A stretch of DNA of 64,000 bases from Alphaproteobacteria bacterium (GTDB lineage Bacteria; Pseudomonadota; Alphaproteobacteria; Micropepsales; Micropepsaceae): the NCBI GenBank assembly GCA_025350465.1, contig JANXXU010000027.1:62001-126000 (forward strand). Reading direction: 5' to 3'. This document shows, in pieces, positions 4,203 to 14,116 of the stretch; positions within the stretch are counted from its first letter, which is position 1; every line of letters begins with the position of its first letter. The notes below the pieces were generated by a model. That model saw only the letters and a list, made by a program, of their open reading frames with translations, did no database searches and was not told where the DNA came from. A program made the translations under genes and the position numbers.

Positions 4203-5306
4203 ATGGCGCGTATTCTGAAGGCTTTGGGGCTCATGAGCGGAACGTCGATGGACGGCATTGACGCGGCAATCCTTGAGACCGACGGTGAAATCGTTGCGGC
4301 CTTTGGTCCCACACGCTTTGCGCCCTATGACGATGTCCTGCGCGCGCGGCTGCGTGACACCGTTAGGGCCGGGCCCTCGCTGCGACTCGATGGCCCGCTT
4401 CCGCGCCGAATTGCAGACATTGAACGCGATTTGACCAAAGCCCACGGCGAAGTGGTGGACGCGTTGCTGAGGGCCGAAGGCCTGCGCGCGACCGATATCG
4501 CCGTTATCGGCTTTCACGGCCACACGCTGGCGCATCGCCCCGCGCTGCGCTCGACGCTGCAGATCGGCTCTGGACCTCTGCTCGCGCAATTGACCCGCAT
4601 CGATGTGATCAGCGATTTTCGCGTCGCCGATGTGCGGGCGGGCGGTCAGGGCGCGCCCTTGGCTCCGACCTATCACCAAGCGCTTTCGCGCGGGCGCGCG
4701 CCTGTCGCAATCCTCAACATCGGCGGTGTCGCCAACGTCACCTTCGTCGGACGCGATGGAACTCTGATCGCGTTCGACACCGGGCCTGGCAACGGTCCGA
4801 TAGACGATTGGGCTTTGCACCATGTCGGCAGGCCCGTCGACGAGGGCGGCAAGCTCGCGCAACGTGGCCGCGTGCACGAAGACATCATTGCCGTGCAACT
4901 GGCCCATCCTTACTTCATCAAGCCCCCGCCCAAATCCCTGGACCGCATGGATTTCACTGCGGACATGACGCGCAATCTAAGCCCAGCCGACGGTGCCGCA
5001 ACACTGACGGCATTCACTGCCCGCGCGGCTGCGAAATCGCTAGAGCAATTTCCTGAGGCTCCGCGCGACTGGATCGTGTGCGGCGGCGGCCGACACAATC
5101 CGGTTCTTATGGCAGCGCTGCAATCGGCATTGCCGGGCACCCGTATAAAGGCCGCTGAAGACCTCGGCTGGCGCGGCGACTTCATCGAGGCCGAAGCCTT
5201 CGCTTATCTCGCGGTGCGCAGCTTGCGCGGCCTGCCGTTCAGCTTTCCCAAGACCACGGGCGTGCCACGGCCGATGACTGGCGGCGTGCTGAGTGTGCGA
5301 AGCTAG
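4203..5306 (+). CDS. anmK: Anhydro-N-acetylmuramic acid kinase
   Basis: Peptidoglycan-recycling enzyme that opens the 1,6-anhydro ring of anhMurNAc and phosphorylates it to MurNAc-6-phosphate. The N-terminal signature [12 protein letters not shown] is present, followed by [11 protein letters not shown], the phosphate-binding [10 protein letters not shown] and FDTGPGN. A C-terminal [11 protein letters not shown] matches the second nucleotide-binding lobe. The length of 367 residues is typical. It is divergent from tyrS, an arrangement seen in other alphaproteobacteria, and its 3' end overlaps the convergent hydrolase gene by 4 bp. Confidence 0.95.
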
Positions 5307-5962
5307 CCGCTGCTTTCCTCGACAGGCGGCATGCGCATGTCGAGATATTCCTCGACCACCTGCTTCAGTTGCGTGATGTGATTGTCGAAGAAGTGGTTGG
5401 CGCCATCGACTTTGACCTGAGTGATTTTGATGCCGCGTTGCGCCGACAGACGATCGACGAGTTTCTGCACGTCCGCCTCCGGCGCCACCTGATCATTGCG
5501 CCCGTGCACGATCAGGCCGGACGCGGGACAAGGGGCGAGGAAGGTGAAGTCGTAGATGTTCGCCGGCGGTGAGATCGAGATGAAAGCTTGGATCTCTGGC
5601 CGGCGCATCATCAACTGCATGCCGATCCAAGCGCCGAACGAGAAGCCGACGATCCAGCAACCTTGAGCGCCGGGATTCATCGCCTGCATCCAGTCGAGCG
5701 CGGCCGCGGCATCCGACAACTCGCCGATGCCGCCGTCGAAAAGACCTTGACTGCGGCCGACCCCACGAAAGTTGAACCGCATCACCGAGCAGCCCCGGCG
5801 CTGAAAGCAGTAAAACATCTCGTAGACGACGCGATTGTTCATCGTGCCGCCGAACTGCGGGTGCGGGTGCAGAACCAAGGCGATTGGCGCCGTCTTGTGT
5901 TTTTGATGCTGATATCGACCTTCGAGCCGGCCAGTCGGCCCTGCAAAAATCACTTCAGGCAT
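5303..5962 (-). CDS. Alpha/beta hydrolase of the KANL3/Tex30-like group
   Basis: Predicted cytoplasmic serine hydrolase of 219 residues. An HPHPQFGGTMNN stretch at 32-43 is characteristic of this bacterial subfamily. The nucleophile elbow GFSFG puts Ser108 at the active site. Asp in HGRNDQVAPE and His in DGANHFFDNH are plausible triad partners. There is no signal peptide. Substrates of the subfamily are poorly known and nothing next to the gene specifies one. The gene converges on anmK with a 4-bp overlap, and its 5' side faces the regulatory region of the suf operon. Confidence 0.8.
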   Translation of the reverse strand: MPEVIFAGPTGRLEGRYQHQKHKTAPIALVLHPHPQFGGTMNNRVVYEMFYCFQRRGCSVMRFNFRGVGRSQGLFDGGIGELSDAAAALDWMQAMNPGAQGCWIVGFSFGAWIGMQLMMRRPEIQAFISISPPANIYDFTFLAPCPASGLIVHGRNDQVAPEADVQKLVDRLSAQRGIKITQVKVDGANHFFDNHITQLKQVVEEYLDMRMPPVEESSG

Positions 5963-6063
5963 GTTTGGGCGTTACCTTCTCGCGCGGCTTTGTCAATGTC
6001 CGCTGTAGGGTCTTTCTCGGCGGCGCAAACCCGAAAAACCCGTTTCGGAACAATTTGTTGCAG

Positions 6064-6089
6064 ATAACCTGACTGAAATAGTCCCTAAT
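6064..6089 (+). promoter_or_regulatory. IscR type-1-like operator, distal copy
   Basis: The palindromic core GACTGAAATAGTC (6071-6083) is flanked by AT-rich ends. The layout matches the type-1 [2Fe-2S]-IscR box known from Escherichia coli, with GACT and AGTC half-sites and a 13-bp core. It lies just upstream of the -35 element of the iscR-suf promoter. Binding by the downstream IscR is inferred. Confidence 0.65.
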
Positions 6090-6113
6090 ACTTGACCACA
6101 GCAGTCGGGAAAT
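6088..6113 (+). promoter_or_regulatory. IscR type-1-like operator, promoter-overlapping copy
   Basis: A second core with the same geometry, GACCACAGCAGTC (6094-6106), with flanks ATACTT and GGGAAAT close to the known type-1 consensus. Its centre is 23 bp from the first copy. It covers the spacer of the predicted promoter, as expected of an autorepression site. Confidence 0.7.
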
Positions 6114-6120
6114 CTATATC
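6092..6120 (+). promoter_or_regulatory. Predicted sigma-70 promoter of the iscR-suf operon
   Basis: The -35 is TTGACC (6092-6097) and the -10 is TATATC (6115-6120), with a 17-bp spacer. The proximal IscR-type box occupies the -35 and the spacer. The predicted transcript start is near 6127, which leaves a leader of about 110 nt before the iscR ATG. Confidence 0.6.
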
Positions 6121-6237
6121 GCTCGCCGGCAGGGCGCCGGGGGCGGCGCTTTCTACCACGCCTCTATGGCGCAAAAGCAAGGAAATCGAACGCAGGGCGC
6201 GCTTGTGGCGCAGGTGGTTCGGAAAGGGACGGAACCC

Positions 6238-6705
6238 ATGAAGCTCTCGACCAAAGGGCGCTACGCAGTGATGGCGATGGTCGATCTCGCGCGCCATAGC
6301 GCGGGCAAACCGGTGGCGCTGAACGATATCGCAGCGCGCCAGGAAATCTCGCTATCCTATTTGGAGCAGCTGTTCGCCAAGCTCAGACGAGGTGGCCTTG
6401 TGATCAGCACACGAGGTCCCGGCGGCGGCTATCGCCTGGCACGCAGTGCCGCAGAAACGCGCATCGCCGACATTATTTTGGCAGTCGATGAGCCGATCAA
6501 AGCAACGCGCTGCGAACTCGGTAGTCCGAAGGGCTGCACGGGCCACCAGGGGCGCTGCGTGACCCACGACCTTTGGGAAGAGCTCGGCCGCCAGATCCAG
6601 ATCTTCTTGAGCGCCGTCACTCTCGACGATGTCGTCAACAAGCGCGTGCTTGGTATGAGCCGGCTGCCGAACACTGAGACATCACGCGAGCCGGTCGCGG
6701 CCTAA
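6238..6705 (+). CDS. iscR: IscR, Rrf2-family Fe-S cluster regulator
   Basis: DNA-binding sensor of Fe-S status that normally represses its own operon when it carries a [2Fe-2S] cluster. The 155-residue protein starts MKLSTKGRYAVMAMVDLA, the standard Rrf2 winged-helix opening, with the recognition segment ISLSYLEQLFAKLRR. Cluster ligands are recognisable as Cys92, Cys100, Cys107 and His110. The Cys spacing is slightly longer than in the E. coli protein, as is common in alphaproteobacteria. The ATG at 6238 follows a GGAAAGGGA-type ribosome-binding site; an earlier in-frame start at 6166 would add an unrelated tail. It heads the suf operon, 9 bp before the cysteine desulfurase gene. Confidence 0.93.
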   Translation: MKLSTKGRYAVMAMVDLARHSAGKPVALNDIAARQEISLSYLEQLFAKLRRGGLVISTRGPGGGYRLARSAAETRIADIILAVDEPIKATRCELGSPKGCTGHQGRCVTHDLWEELGRQIQIFLSAVTLDDVVNKRVLGMSRLPNTETSREPVAA

Positions 6706-6714
6706 GACAAAACG

Positions 6715-7878
6715 ATGCGCGCTTATTTCGATACCAATGCAACAGCGCCGCTTCGCCCCGAGGCGAAGGCAGCTATGCTTACGGCTCTCGACGCCACCGG
6801 TAACGCCCAGTCGGTGCACGCTGAGGGTCGCCAGGCACGCGCCCGAATTGAAAAGTCGCGCAAGCAAGTCAGCGCTCTTGTCGACTGCGCCGCCAGCGAC
6901 GTCATCTTCACCAGCGGCGGGTCGGAAGCGAATGCTCTAGCGTTGCGCGGCGCTATCCAAGGCGCTGCCGAAGCCGGCGACCGGTTCACGCGGCTTGTCG
7001 TCTCGGCGATCGAGCATGACTCCGTTTTGGCTAACGCCGCGCTCTGCGAGGCGACGAACGCAGGCTTGCGGGTTGTCGAATGCCCGGTGACCGGGCAGGG
7101 AGTTGTCGATCTTATCGAGTTCCGCCGGATCCTGCGCGAAGGCAAGGGTCGCGCACTGGTTTCCATCATGGCCGCGAACAACGAAACCGGCGTCGTCCAA
7201 CCGATTGCCGAGGTCGTCAACGAAGCCAAGACCGTCGGCGCGTTGGTTCACTGCGACGCCGTACAGGCGGCCGGCAAATTGCCGTTCTCGTTCGCCAAGC
7301 TCGGACTCGATTATGCGACTCTGAGTGCGCACAAGGTCGGAGGCCCACAAGGGGTCGGAGCGCTGGTTGCACGTTCGAAGGTTCCGCTGGCGCGTCAGAT
7401 CGCCGGCGGCGGGCAGGAGCGAGGACATCGCGCCGGGACCGAGAACGTCGCTGCGATCGCAGGCTTTGGCGCCGCGGCCGAAGCTGCGTCGCGCGATCTC
7501 GATCAGATTGGGGATATGCAGACTCTACGCGAATATGGTGAACAAATACTTAATGCGATTTGCCCGGACGCAACCATCTTCGGAGTAGGCGCCGCGCGCT
7601 TGGCCAATACGATTTGCATCGCGGCACCGGGCATGAGCGCTGAGACGCTTGTCATCGCCCTCGACCTCGAGGGCTTTGCTGTGAGTGCTGGCGCCGCCTG
7701 CTCGTCTGGCAAGGTACGTCAGAGCCACGTCTTGGCTGCCATGGGTGTGGATTCGGTCTTGGCGAAAAACGCGATACGCGTGAGCTTTGGCCCGACCACG
7801 ACGCGCGGAGAACTCAACGCATTCGCCGAGGCGTGGGCGCGCATCCTGAAGCGCGCGCAGCCGCGCGCGGCGGCATAA
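6715..7878 (+). CDS. Type I (NifS/IscS-like) cysteine desulfurase
   Basis: PLP enzyme that takes sulfur from cysteine for Fe-S or thiolation pathways. It opens with [14 protein letters not shown]. The PLP lysine is Lys207 in SAHKVGG. The sulfur-accepting Cys329 lies in the extended loop [15 protein letters not shown], the type I arrangement. The length of 387 residues is normal. It sits between iscR and sufB in the same operon, although the operon also encodes a type II SufS. The division of labour between the two is not evident. No IscU scaffold gene is in the window. Confidence 0.92.
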
Positions 7879-7886
7879 GGACAACG

Positions 7887-9338
7887 ATGGCAGAACAAGC
7901 AACCATTGATGCCGTCACCGCCCGGGGCGCCGAGCGCTACAAATACGGCTTCGTCACCGACATCGAGAGCGACAAAGCCCCCAAAGGCCTGAGCGTCGAC
8001 ACGGTTCGCTTCATTTCGGCCAAGAAGAACGAGCCGCAATGGATGCTCGAATGGCGCCTTCAGGCGTATGAGCGCTGGCTGACCATGCGCGAACCGCGCT
8101 GGGCGCGCGTGAGCTATCCGCCGATCGACTATCAGGATGCCTATTATTATTCGGCGCCAAAGAACCAGAAGAAGCTCGAGAGTCTGGATCAAGTCGACCC
8201 GAAGCTGCTTGAAACTTATAAGAAGCTCGGCATTCCGTTGACTGAGCAGAAACTGCTCGCCGGCGTCGCCGTTGACGCGGTGTTCGACAGCGTTTCGGTC
8301 GCGACGACCTTCAAAGGAAAGTTGGCGGAGGCCGGCGTCATATTCTGTCCGATCTCCGAGGCGTTGCAGACCCACCCTGAACTCGTGCGCAAATATCTGG
8401 GTAGCGTCGTACCGATCACCGATAATTTTTTCGCCACTCTGAACGCGGCCGTCTTTTCCGACGGCTCGTTTGTCTATGTGCCGCCCGGCGTTCGTTGCCC
8501 CATGGAGCTGTCGACGTATTTTCGCATCAACGAAGCCTCGACGGGTCAGTTCGAACGTACGCTCATCATCGCGGACAAAGGCTCCTACGTTTCCTATCTC
8601 GAAGGCTGCACGGCGCCGATGCGCGACGAGAACCAGCTGCACGCTGCCGTCGTTGAGCTGATCGCGCTCGATGACGCAGAGATCAAGTACTCGACCGTCC
8701 AAAACTGGTATCCGGGCGACGAGAACGGCCTCGGCGGGATCTACAATTTCGTCACCAAGCGCGGCGATTGCCGCGGCTCGCGGTCGAAGATCAGCTGGAC
8801 GCAAGTCGAGACCGGCTCTGCCATTACCTGGAAATATCCAAGCTGTATCTTGCGCGGCGACAATTCCGTCGGCGAGTTCTTTTCGATCGCCATCACAAAT
8901 CATCATCAGCAGGCCGATACCGGCACGAAGATGATCCACCTCGGCCGCAATACGCGCTCGCGCATCATCTCGAAGGGGATCAGCGCCGGTCAGGCACAAA
9001 ACACCTATCGAGGGCTCGTCAGCGCTCATGCCAGAGCCGACAACGCACGCAATTACACGCAGTGCGATTCGCTGCTGATTGGGCCCAAATGCGGCGCACA
9101 TACCGTGCCGTACATGGAGAGCGGCAACCGCACCGCACAGTTCGAGCACGAAGCAACGACGTCGAAGATCAGCGACGACCAACTGTTCTATTGCCTTTCG
9201 CGCGGTATCCCGGCCGAGGAAGCGGTCACCTTGATCGTCAACGGTTTTTGCCGCGACGTGCTGCAGAATCTGCCGATGGAATTCGCCGTGGAGGCACAGA
9301 AATTGATTGGAATCAGTCTTGAGGGAAGCGTCGGATGA
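7887..9338 (+). CDS. sufB: SufB, Fe-S cluster scaffold subunit
   Basis: Core subunit of the SufBCD complex, on which new Fe-S clusters are assembled. The 483-residue protein has the SufB signature regions [16 protein letters not shown] near residue 75 and [17 protein letters not shown] near 200. The C-terminal beta-helix core includes [17 protein letters not shown], and the conserved [10 protein letters not shown] is also present. Translation is taken from the ATG at 7887, 8 bp after the desulfurase stop. An upstream in-frame start inside the previous gene is unlikely. The stop overlaps the start of the next small gene (ATGA). Confidence 0.97.
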
Positions 9339-9596
9339 GCGACAGCCGCGAAGTTTGGTTCGTTCGAACCAGTTACACCGGTCAAGCCTACCCGGTGACG
9401 TGGCAAGGATGGCTGGCGACACTGGCGTTTGCAGCGTTCGTCGTCACGATGGTGATTCTTGGTGTAATCATTGCGGCGACGGCTTTCGTGATCGCTGTCA
9501 TCGTCGCCGTGTTTCTCGTTGCCTTTGCTTATCTACGGTTTGTTTTCCGTCATAGCCGTGCGTCGCGTAACGTTGCCGACTACCGAGGGCCCACCG

Positions 9597-9604
<8 letters not shown>
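9335..9604 (+). CDS. Small membrane protein embedded between sufB and sufC
   Basis: 89-residue protein of unknown function. The N-terminal part has aromatic and polar residues ([20 protein letters not shown]). Residues 26-67 are almost wholly hydrophobic, enough for one long or two tightly packed TM helices. A short basic tail ([11 protein letters not shown]) follows. The W-F-P-x-TWQGW pattern recalls a family of short bacterial inner-membrane proteins without assigned function. It overlaps sufB by 4 bp and sufC by 8 bp, so its translation should be coupled to both. A membrane protein inside a cytosolic Fe-S assembly operon is the odd point here; a tethering or membrane-recruitment role is only a guess. 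Confidence 0.75.
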
Positions 9605-10339
<735 letters not shown>

Positions 10340-10343
<4 letters not shown>

Positions 10344-11656
10344 GTGCGGCACCTGAACAGCGACCGGATCAACCCGCGTCCGAAGCTGAATTCGCGGCTC
10401 TGTTCGCGTCCGTGCGCGCTCAACTTCCAGGACCCAATTGGATCCAAGCGATGCGGGCCGAGGCTCTTGCTGCCTTCTTGCGCCAAGGGTTGCCGCACAA
10501 GCGGCTCGAGCGTTGGAAGTACACCGACTTCCGGACGCATTTCGGTGGCGGCTTGGCACTCGCGCAAGGAGGGGAGGGCGAAACTCCGGTCGATCTCTTC
10601 GATGGTCTGAATGCCCACCGCGTGCTGCTTTCGAACGGCGCGGTCCGCAGTGCGCCCGAGCCAGAGGGGTTGCCGGACGGCGTCGAGATCATTCGCCTTG
10701 CCGACGCGTTGACCACACCTGCTCTGTGGCTCAAGCCATGGTTGCGCGCCGATCGCTCCGCGCTCGAATCACTCAACCTCGCCTTTATGACCGATGGAGT
10801 CCTGATTCGCGTTGGCGCCAAAACGCGCGTGACCTTGCCGATCCTTCTCCACAATACAATGAGCCAAGCGGGCGTCATGGCCCACACACGCTCTATTGTG
10901 ATGCTTGAAGAAGGCGCCGAACTGACGGTCATCGAAATCGACGACGGCGCACCCTCCAGCCAAAGCTTCGTCAACAGCGTCATGGCGCTGTCGCTCGACG
11001 ACGGCGCCCGCCTTCACCATTTGCGCCTCGTCGCTGCACAAGGTCCAAGCTTGCTGGTTCGGACCGACCAAGTAGAGGTCGCTCGCAATGCCCGCTACGA
11101 GACATTGGTATTTTCGTCCGGCACAGCGTTGGCGAGGTCCGAGCTGAATGTCCTGCTTGCCGAGCCCCGGTCCTCGTTCGATTTGGCCGGTGCGTATGTT
11201 GCGAGCGGTGAGGAACTGAACGACATCACATTCTCCGTGACCCATGACGCGCCACACACTACGAGCCGCATGCTCGTCAAGGGAGTCGCCGGGGGCGAGG
11301 GCCGCGCGACGGTTCAGGGTAGCGTCATTGTCAAACCCGATGCCCAGAAATCCGACAGTCATCAATTGGCCCGCGGAATTCTACTTTCGCCGCGTGCCGA
11401 GATCGACCAAAAGCCCGAACTGGAGATCTTCGCCGACGACGTCAAATGCGGCCATGGCGCTGCCATCGGCGCTCTCGATGGCGAACAACTTTTCTATCTG
11501 CGATCGCGCGGCATTCCCGAACCGCAAGCGCGCGCCGTCCTGATTAGAGCTTTCATCGGCGAGGTCGTCGAACGGCTCGGCACCGGCGATTGGCAGGCCC
11601 GCATTTCCGCATGGTTGGACTCGCGCCTCGCGATTGTGACGGAGGAAGCGGCGTGA
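10340..11656 (+). CDS. sufD: SufD, Fe-S assembly subunit
   Basis: Partner of SufB in the SufBC2D complex. The 438-residue protein has a variable helical N-terminal part, with LERWKYTDFRTHF near residue 55. The C-terminal beta-helix domain ends with the diagnostic DVKCGHGAAIGALDGEQLFYL-type region, followed by LRSRGIPEPQARAVLIRAF. It begins at the ATGA overlap with sufC and ends in a GTGA overlap with sufS, consistent with tight coupling. Confidence 0.95.
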
Positions 11657-12906
11657 CCGCTCAACCCGTACCAACGGCACCGCCTAAGCGCCCCTTCGAC
11701 GTAATGCGCGTGCGCGAAGATTTTCCGATTCTGTCGGGCCGCGTGAATGGCAAGGCGTTGGTTTACCTCGACAACGCCGCGTCCGCGCAAAAGCCCAAGG
11801 CCGTGATCGACGCGATGACAGCGCTGATGGAAAATTCCTATGCGAACGTCCATCGCGGATTGCACGCGCTCTCGACGCAGTCGACCGAGGCTTACGAAGC
11901 TGCGCGCGAGACGGTCCGCGCCTTCCTGAATGCCGGTGAAGCCGCAGAAATCGTCTTTACCAGCGGCGCAACGGATTCGATCAATCTTGTCGCCAGCAGT
12001 CTCGGCGCCTCGATCAACGCCGGCGATGAGATCGTGCTCAGCCAAATGGAGCACCATTCCAACATCGTGCCTTGGCATTTTCTGCGCGAGCGAAAAGGCG
12101 CCGTCATTCGCTGGGCGCCGATCACCGACGACGGCGCCTTTGATCTCGCAGCATTCGAACAATTGCTGACACCGCGCACTAAGGTCATTGCCGTCGCGCA
12201 TATGTCGAACGTCCTTGGCACGGTAACGCCGGCGGCCGAGATTGTGCGCATCGCTCGTGCGCGAGGCATACCGGTGCTTTTCGACGGCGCGCAGGCGGCG
12301 GTCCACATGCCGATCGATGTGCAAGCGTTAGGCTGTGACTTCTACGCTTTCACCGGTCACAAACTCTACGGACCCACCGGCATCGGCGTCCTCTACATGA
12401 AGCGCGAGTGGGGCGAGAAACTTGCGCCATTCCGCGGCGGCGGCGAGATGATCGACGAAGTCCATTTCGACCGCGTCACCTACGGTCCGCCGCCCCAGCG
12501 ATTTGAGGCGGGTACGCCCCCGATCATCGAGGCGATTGGCCTTGCGGCCGCGATCGACTACGTGAACTCGTTTGAACGCAGAGCGTTGATGGCGCAAGAA
12601 CACGACCTGCTGGAATACGCGACGGAACAATTGTCTGGACTGAACTGGATTCAGCTTCAGGGCCGGGCGCCAGGCAAGGGTTCAATCGTTTCGTTCACGA
12701 TGGAAGGGGCGCATGCGCACGATGTGGCGACGCTCGTCGATCGCCAAGCCGTCGCGGTGCGTGCCGGACATCACTGCGCCCAGCCGTTGATGGAGCGCCT
12801 CGGCGTCGCGGCCACGGCGCGCGCTTCGTTTGCCTTCTATAACACGCGCGGCGAGGTCGACGCGTTGATCGACGCGCTTCGCCGCGCCCGCGCGATTTTC
12901 TCATGA
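11653..12906 (+). CDS. sufS: SufS, type II cysteine desulfurase
   Basis: PLP enzyme that supplies sulfur to the SufBCD scaffold. The GTG at 11653 overlaps the sufD stop and gives 417 residues; an ATG at 11704 is a possible later start. Lys237 in TGHKLYGPTG binds PLP. Cys375 in RAGHHCAQPL is the active-site cysteine in the short type II loop. SufS normally needs a SufE or SufU partner, and neither is encoded nearby, so the partner must be elsewhere or replaced. Confidence 0.96.
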   Translation: MTAQPVPTAPPKRPFDVMRVREDFPILSGRVNGKALVYLDNAASAQKPKAVIDAMTALMENSYANVHRGLHALSTQSTEAYEAARETVRAFLNAGEAAEIVFTSGATDSINLVASSLGASINAGDEIVLSQMEHHSNIVPWHFLRERKGAVIRWAPITDDGAFDLAAFEQLLTPRTKVIAVAHMSNVLGTVTPAAEIVRIARARGIPVLFDGAQAAVHMPIDVQALGCDFYAFTGHKLYGPTGIGVLYMKREWGEKLAPFRGGGEMIDEVHFDRVTYGPPPQRFEAGTPPIIEAIGLAAAIDYVNSFERRALMAQEHDLLEYATEQLSGLNWIQLQGRAPGKGSIVSFTMEGAHAHDVATLVDRQAVAVRAGHHCAQPLMERLGVAATARASFAFYNTRGEVDALIDALRRARAIFS

Positions 12907-12916
12907 GAGCCCCATC

Positions 12917-13273
12917 ATGAGCGCAGAACCTTTGCACGTCGAAGCGTCAACCCTCAAGCCTAAGGAGCTTGAGGAATTGACCGCCGCCATGGTCAAGGAA
13001 CTCAAGACCGTCTTCGACCCGGAAATTCCGGTCGACGTCTATGAGCTGGGACTGATTTACAAAATCGACATCGCGGACAACAAGGACGTGACCGTCGACA
13101 TGACGTTGACCGCGCCGGGCTGCCCGGTGGCGGGCGAAATGCCGGGCTGGGTCAAGGAAGCCGTACAACGTATCCCGGGCCTCGGCGAGGTGACCGTGAA
13201 CATGGTTTTCGATCCGCCCTGGACGCCAGAGCGCATGTCGGACGAAGCGAAGCTTGAATTGAACATGTTCTGA
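12917..13273 (+). CDS. sufT: SufT, MIP18/DUF59-type Fe-S maturation factor
   Basis: 118-residue protein of the MIP18 (DUF59) family, an accessory factor in Fe-S protein maturation. The conserved opening VFDPEIPVDVYELGLIYKID and the central cysteine motif LTAPGCPVAGEMP are clear. The end NMVFDPPWTPERMSDEAK is typical for suf-linked members. It lies 10 bp after sufS and 19 bp before sufA in the operon. Confidence 0.93.
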   Translation: MSAEPLHVEASTLKPKELEELTAAMVKELKTVFDPEIPVDVYELGLIYKIDIADNKDVTVDMTLTAPGCPVAGEMPGWVKEAVQRIPGLGEVTVNMVFDPPWTPERMSDEAKLELNMF

Positions 13274-13292
13274 GGCCAGATAACGCAAAGCT

Positions 13293-13685
13293 ATGACCGA
13301 CATCCAAGCCCCAGTCAGACCACGCCGTGAGCGCCCGAAGGTGCTTCGCCTGACCGATGCCGCCGCGGACCAGATCAAATCCGTGATGGCGCGAACGGAA
13401 AAGCCAGCGATTGGGCTGCGAGTCGGTTTGAAGAATGCCGGTTGCGCCGGCATGAGCTACACGCTCGACTTCGCCGATAAGCAAAATCCGCTCGACGAGG
13501 TTGTCGAGGACAAGGGCGCGCGCGTTCTCATCGACCCGAAGGCCGTTCTATTTCTTATCGGTACCGAAATGGATTTCGTGAAGGACAAGATGCAATCGCG
13601 CTTCGTTTTTAACAATCCGAATCAGACTGACGCCTGCGGCTGCGGCGAATCCGTGGCGCTCAAGGCCGCCACAAAGGCGGAGTAG
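13293..13685 (+). CDS. sufA: SufA/IscA-type A-type carrier protein
   Basis: A-type carrier that passes Fe-S clusters from the scaffold to client proteins. Of its 130 residues, Cys51 (NAGCAGMSY), Cys115 and Cys117 (DACGCGES) are the three conserved cysteine ligands. The N-terminus carries about 15 extra basic residues before LRLTDAAADQIKSVM. Its place at the end of the suf series supports SufA over ErpA, although sequence alone does not fully separate the two. Confidence 0.92.
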   Translation: MTDIQAPVRPRRERPKVLRLTDAAADQIKSVMARTEKPAIGLRVGLKNAGCAGMSYTLDFADKQNPLDEVVEDKGARVLIDPKAVLFLIGTEMDFVKDKMQSRFVFNNPNQTDACGCGESVALKAATKAE

Positions 13686-13690
13686 AAGCG

Positions 13691-14116
13691 GTGGCGGTCT
13701 CGGCCGCCTTTCGCGACTACGTCGCCGATCTGTTCGCTTCCTTTGGCGAGATCAAAATCCGCGCCATGTTCGGCGGCGCCGGCATCTATCACAAGGATCA
13801 GATCCTCGGCCTGATCATCGCCGAGCGCATCTATCTCAAGGCGGACGACGTCACCCGGCCGGCATTCGAGCGCGAGGGCGCGCAACCGTTTCGCTACAGC
13901 ACGAAGAACGGCGAAGTCGGCGTAATGGCATATTGGGAACTGCCAGAGCGGCTGCTTGACGATCCCGATGAACTCAAATCCTGGGCAAAAGCCGCCTACG
14001 AGACCGGCATTCGCTCGCGGGGAAAGAAATCGGCGGCCAAGAAACCGCGAACCGGCAAACCGCTCAATCCGCGCGATCTGCCCCTCGTGTCGCTGCCTAA
14101 GAGGCGCGGCAAGTAG
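13691..14116 (+). CDS. TfoX N-terminal-domain protein
   Basis: 141-residue protein with a single TfoX N-terminal domain at residues 5-100 (IRAMFGGAGIYHKDQILGLI, RYSTKNGEVGVMAYWELP). A lysine/arginine-rich tail follows (RGKKSAAKKPRTGK). The C-terminal DNA-repair-like half of full-length TfoX (Sxy) is missing, as in many alphaproteobacterial homologues. It starts with GTG, 5 bp after sufA, and looks like the last gene of the suf transcript. A competence role should not be assumed; its function here is unknown. Confidence 0.8.
   Translation: MAVSAAFRDYVADLFASFGEIKIRAMFGGAGIYHKDQILGLIIAERIYLKADDVTRPAFEREGAQPFRYSTKNGEVGVMAYWELPERLLDDPDELKSWAKAAYETGIRSRGKKSAAKKPRTGKPLNPRDLPLVSLPKRRGK

Follow-up and report, generated by a model that had tools for sequence, protein, structure and literature searches.

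A predicted two-site IscR operator at the iscR-suf promoter of an alphaproteobacterium of the family Micropepsaceae

IscR operators at characterised iscR promoters

The described iscR promoters closest in layout to the one reported here are those of Escherichia coli and Pseudomonas aeruginosa. The reference operator used throughout is the E. coli Type-1 25-mer consensus ATASYYGACTRWWWYAGTCRRSTAT, with its GAC...GTC half-sites, as printed in PMC6599224. Scored against this consensus, the E. coli promoter PiscR (L131) has a site A of 24/25 and a site B of 22/25, which lie 25 bp apart, equivalent to 2.38 helical turns, with B placed over TTGACC-N17. According to PMC6599224, E. coli IscR binds either of the two sites independently. 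In P. aeruginosa PAO1, the footprinted sites A and B of the iscR promoter span −67 to −43 and −42 to −18, respectively, and match the consensus at 17/25 and 19/25 positions (68% and 76%). Site B is bound first and helps binding at A, and only [Fe-S]-IscR binds; the authors did not distinguish stepwise from cooperative binding (PMC6599224).

Two alphaproteobacterial systems provide the other points of comparison. In Caulobacter, IscR binds over the −35 element of the isc-suf promoter and acts as a repressor when iron is high (PMC11475020), and in Rhodobacter sphaeroides an IscR box is predicted at −36 to −19 of P2, the main promoter (PMC6956336; PMC4618611). A literature search conducted mostly without subscription papers found no tandem or second IscR site in an alphaproteobacterium, which does not prove absence.

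The iscR-suf locus and its two Type-1 cores

The window, a 64,000-nt stretch of contig JANXXU010000027.1, carries iscR (6238–6705, forward strand; 155 aa) next to a divergent alpha/beta hydrolase gene (5303–5962, reverse strand), which is a conserved neighbour of the operon. Downstream of iscR, the forward strand encodes, at 6715–14116, an iscS-like gene, sufB, an 89-aa ORF, sufC, sufD, sufS, sufT, sufA and a TfoX_N protein, in this order. Gaps between adjacent genes lie between −67 and +19 nt, where the two largest overlaps are measured on the longest open frames; thus, the genes from iscR to tfoX_N plausibly form a single operon, and the count of ten given in a first-pass annotation, made from the DNA letters alone, was right. 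The 89-aa ORF (9335–9604) is hydrophobic. In R. sphaeroides, a hypothetical gene, RSP_0439, is listed between sufB and sufC (PMC6956336).

The 275-nt intergenic region between the hydrolase gene and iscR holds two Type-1-like cores and a predicted promoter, TTGACC-N17-TATATC, which spans 6092–6120 of the forward strand (−35 at 6092–6097, −10 at 6115–6120, spacer of 17 nt). The −10 element is conserved in relatives; a simple consensus promoter scan did not call it. Both cores are read on the forward strand. Site 1 (A-like), with the core GACTGAAATAGTC at 6071–6083, is part of an extended 25-mer (6065–6089) that matches the E. coli consensus at 19/25 positions, including all 13 of the core, and deviates in the right flank. 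Site 2 (B-like), with the core GACCACAGCAGTC at 6094–6106, has an extended 25-mer (6088–6112) matching at 20/25 positions overall and at 10/13 in the core. Judged by consensus match and half-sites, both therefore qualify as Type-1 IscR operators at the sequence level. The core centres, 6077 and 6100, are 23 bp apart, exactly as the first-pass annotation had placed them, and the 25-mers overlap by 2 bp, a tighter packing than that of the E. coli pair. The bases GACC are common to the −35 element and site 2, which continues into the spacer, a placement expected to block RNA polymerase. The annotation had proposed this promoter with the second core over its spacer; both points hold, and the overlap extends to the −35 element as well. 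It had also described the two palindromes as alike in geometry and flanks. Each core has four of six outer pairs complementary, so the palindromes are imperfect, and the flanks differ.

The E. coli Type-1 core GACTRWWWYAGTC has a single exact match in the 4,063,295-base genome, namely, site 1. The core written backwards, used as a control, likewise has one exact match, and base composition predicts about 0.8 matches for a whole genome and 5e-5 for the 275 nt between the hydrolase gene and iscR. Among 2,520 shuffled regions, a 25-mer score of at least 19 at any position was seen in 0.5% and a score of at least 20 in none. By contrast with these measures, the loose initial pattern, which tolerated up to two mismatches, was unspecific, with 327 matches in the window against 257 expected.

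The arrangement resembles the E. coli iscR promoter in its tandem Type-1 sites, with B on TTGACC and a 17-nt spacer and A just upstream. E. coli site B (ATAGTTGACCAATTTACTCGGGAAT) overlaps the −35 element in the same way as site 2 of the window (ATACTTGACCACAGCAGTCGGGAAA), and one regular expression matches both E. coli PiscR and the window with its 23-bp layout. The two differ in spacing (23 versus 25 bp), in the match of site A, which is stronger in E. coli (24/25), in the operon controlled (suf versus isc) and in the minor third site, C, reported for E. coli (PMC6599224). P. aeruginosa, too, pairs a Type-1 site on the −35 element with another one upstream, B being primary and A secondary; unlike in the window, the spacing there is 25 bp, the operon is isc and the A site is weaker (68% of the consensus) (PMC6599224). 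In common with Caulobacter and Rhodobacter, iscR is the first gene of the operon, isc-suf in those two, and an IscR site covers the −35 element. However, one IscR box is described at the main promoter of those two, whereas the window has a second, and Rhodobacter IscR has a single Cys, in contrast to the Cys3His set of the window protein. By its sequence, the locus is a known kind of two-site arrangement, that of the A/B sites of E. coli and P. aeruginosa, here at an alphaproteobacterial suf promoter.

Site 2 as a probable inherited operator

We collected 126 regions upstream of iscR: 30 loci including the window and a further 16, all from whole genomes, and 80 named loci. A few genomes are present twice under different collections (L005/L051, L015/L052, L017/L053). 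Twenty regions without a main site scoring at least 16 were left out of part of the analyses, which cover the other 106; removal of six near-duplicates left 100, and 90 of these include enough upstream sequence to cover the positions around −57.

An equivalent of site 2 that carries the −35 TTGA and scores at least 18/25 is present in 82 of all 126 regions, versus 2.7% of shuffled regions when any position is allowed. Within the family, the pattern is ATACTTGACY....YASTCGGGAAAT-CTATAT, and more distant relatives have full palindromes at this place, such as ATACTTGACTAAAACAGTCAGGAAT (24/25, L044). A second site scoring at least 18 was found in 25 of the 126 regions, at least three of which (L065, L084 and L129) are main sites that had been mis-called. 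In some lineages, cysE is inserted between the hydrolase gene and iscR, and in most of these cases the operator precedes cysE and so stays with the promoter of the operon. On this comparative evidence, site 2 is best read as the usual Type-1 operator of alphaproteobacterial IscR, inherited and merged with the −35 element.

The regulator and its possible regulon

The Cys3His cluster ligands of the encoded regulator, C92, C100, C107 and H110, are invariant in 13 aligned orthologues, although their spacing differs from that in E. coli. The five DNA-contact residues listed for E. coli IscR, S40, Y41, E43, Q44 and R59 (PMC11475020), are all present and equally invariant in the 13 orthologues. Against TIGR02010, the NCBIfam model of IscR, the protein scores 184.8 bits, below the cut-off of 207.55; this is still its best family, and the Rrf2 cut-offs are passed. 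The case for calling it IscR is made by synteny, ligands and similarity, not by the TIGR02010 cut-off. With a regulator that keeps its ligand and contact residues and a site 2 conserved class-wide, the view of the first-pass annotation that IscR-type operators lie over the iscR-suf promoter is supported.

No wider Type-1 IscR regulon is visible in the genome. A scan with the family operator pattern, allowing up to two mismatches, returned the iscR site and only two weak matches, with two in the control, and the Type-1 core with one mismatch occurs in 10 places versus 12 in the control. The annotation had suggested a search for the 13-bp core before other Fe-S genes; near matches to the core across the genome are at control level, so the motif has no supporting regulon here. 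A one-mismatch Type-1 core precedes a lipA-like ORF of the same genome (L138) by 48 bp. Of the lipA loci of 11 relatives, that of the closest relative retains a partial match of 11/13, nine have at most 10/13 and one start could not be located. We considered the core at the lipA-like ORF as an IscR site and rejected it; it is not conserved in relatives and was taken as a chance match.

Site 1 is found in no sampled relative

Unlike site 2, site 1 is absent from all 10 sampled genus mates, even from one with a 93% identical IscR. Among the 106 aligned regions (100 after deduplication), a score of at least 16/25 at −22 to −26 is seen in the window alone. A looser tandem pattern is found in one of 96 family genomes and the strict tandem pattern in one of 385 class genomes, in both cases the window's own; the strict pattern also recovers E. 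coli PiscR and is thus able to detect the arrangement. The simplest reading of this distribution is that site 1 was gained in this lineage. Duplication of site 2 was considered as its source and set aside: the flanks of the two sites are dissimilar, and the relative with the 93% identical IscR lacks the core although its spacing is almost unchanged. For these reasons an origin through point changes seems likelier.

We therefore take the iscR-suf promoter as probably carrying a Type-1 IscR operator with two sites, which combines the inherited site 2 with the lineage-specific site 1; the positions of the sites, the conservation of one, the uniqueness of the other and the ligand and contact residues of IscR can all be read from the sequence. 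For binding, cluster dependence and repression we argue from the characterised relatives. Because site 2 is built into the −35 element and the spacer, a holo-IscR dimer bound there would block RNA polymerase. Site 1 would be an E. coli-like site, newly arisen in this lineage where site A lies in E. coli and P. aeruginosa, and its 13/13 core, together with the precedent of these two species, makes it plausible as the site of a second dimer. Such a dimer could raise occupancy or extend the block, so that [2Fe-2S]-IscR would repress the operon more tightly, while both sites would be freed once IscR loses its cluster, as when iron is limiting or the cell is under oxidative stress. By this analogy, the most likely effect of the second operator is a tighter autorepression by holo-IscR.

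Two further elements of the first-pass annotation do not carry over into this reading. It had placed both dimers on one face of the helix, which is only roughly so: at 10.5 bp per turn, 23 bp correspond to 2.19 turns, about 69 degrees off. The cooperativity that it had proposed is unsupported as stated, given that the E. coli sites are reported to be bound independently and the mode in P. aeruginosa was not distinguished (PMC6599224).

Alternative readings of site 1

The strongest competing explanation, unlikely on balance yet credible, is that site 2 is the sole operator and site 1 a fortuitous sequence, either ignored by IscR or bound without consequence. It agrees with the absence of site 1 from every relative, in the aligned regions as in the family and class genomes, and with the single IscR box described at this promoter in Caulobacter and R. 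sphaeroides. What it leaves to coincidence is that the one exact core in 4.06 Mb takes the place of site A, at a distance of 23 bp from site 2, in an intergenic region where so few matches are expected by chance (5e-5).

Another Rrf2-family regulator could also read site 1, and the two sites would then integrate two signals. Rrf2 proteins bind related palindromes, and the genome encodes two further members of the family. Both paralogues, however, fall well below the IscR, RirA and NsrR cut-offs, nothing ties them to site 1, and the core of site 1 is identical to that of the E. coli Type-1 site for IscR, all of which makes this explanation improbable.

In 10 of the 90 deduplicated regions (L108, L111, L107, L034, L109, L102, L080, L061, L120 and L038), a second Type-1-like site (at least 17/25) lies 55–57 bp upstream of the main site. 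This is far above background, since a three-base interval at other distances averages 0.66 regions; a second maximum, of four regions, falls near −65 to −69. That the window has just a closer copy of a distal operator that assists IscR throughout the class is nevertheless hardly credible: the distal sites cluster around −56 or −67 rather than −23, the window has no Type-1-like site at −56, and several of the carriers are closely related (L034/L107, L108/L111).

Farther upstream of the promoter lies a separate palindrome, CAA-N4-TTG, at 6051–6060 in the window, 41 bp upstream of the start of the −35 element and conserved in part of the family. Twelve of the 106 regions, the window included, carry it at a distance of 40–42 bp from the −35 start; the others are L005, L008, L011, L020, L024, L025, L027, L028, L051, L054 and L055, where L005 and L051 represent one genome.

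A predicted promoter opposing the suf promoter

A block that follows the suf promoter is conserved among relatives and reads on the antisense strand as TTGCTT-N19-TAGAAA. In the window, this predicted promoter occupies 6150–6180 of the reverse strand (−35 TTGCTT at 6180–6175, −10 TAGAAA at 6155–6150), with a 19-nt spacer and TGG just before the −10 element, and faces the suf promoter. Sigma-70 promoter scores were compared with those of shuffles over the 130 nt after the suf promoter in the 106 regions. The mean z is 0.96 on the antisense strand versus −0.32 on the sense strand, and z exceeds 1.64 in 29 antisense and three sense regions (Wilcoxon p 1.5e-10, calculated over related sequences that are not independent); the z of the window itself is 1.44. 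The pattern TTGnnn-N19-TGn-TAnnnn recurs both upstream of iscR and where cysE begins (L004–L130 regions), and we infer that the element is class-wide in Alphaproteobacteria. In cysE-first lineages, its −35 element lies inside the first codons of cysE.

A structured RNA leader was also considered for the genus-conserved block at about 6149–6182 and rejected. An Rfam search with the iscR leader block gave no match, and its consensus fold has five pairs, none supported by changes on both sides. The occurrence of similar elements at the cysE start in cysE-first lineages also counts against an RNA leader, and a promoter on the opposite strand explains the block better.

In R. sphaeroides, P5 is a measured promoter at this place, which drives the divergent hydrolase gene and is repressed by OxyR; its presence raised the sense promoter (PMC6956336). 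The antisense promoter of the window has the same position on the opposite strand, downstream of the iscR promoter, and the same direction, toward the divergent hydrolase gene. P5 was measured, whereas the window promoter is predicted from sequence and conservation, and it is probably the orthologue of P5 and the promoter of the hydrolase gene. With this precedent, the antisense promoter implies that the IscR sites probably lie inside the transcribed leader of the hydrolase. If hydrolase transcripts run across the IscR operator in this way throughout Alphaproteobacteria, the newly gained site 1 might, though we hold this to be doubtful, be both a tighter repressor and a stronger roadblock to the opposing transcription.

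Implications

If true, the roadblock reading would tie expression of the hydrolase to Fe-S status. Two side results, the opposing promoter with its conservation and the distal operator that recurs near −56, can be put to the test and concern a pathway needed by every such cell. As for the two-site operator itself, it would mean that the one-site alphaproteobacterial suf switch can be upgraded to the two-site form of the gammaproteobacterial isc promoters by one 13-bp core. The genome of the window and the relative with the 93% identical IscR form a natural pair in which the contribution of the second site could be measured.
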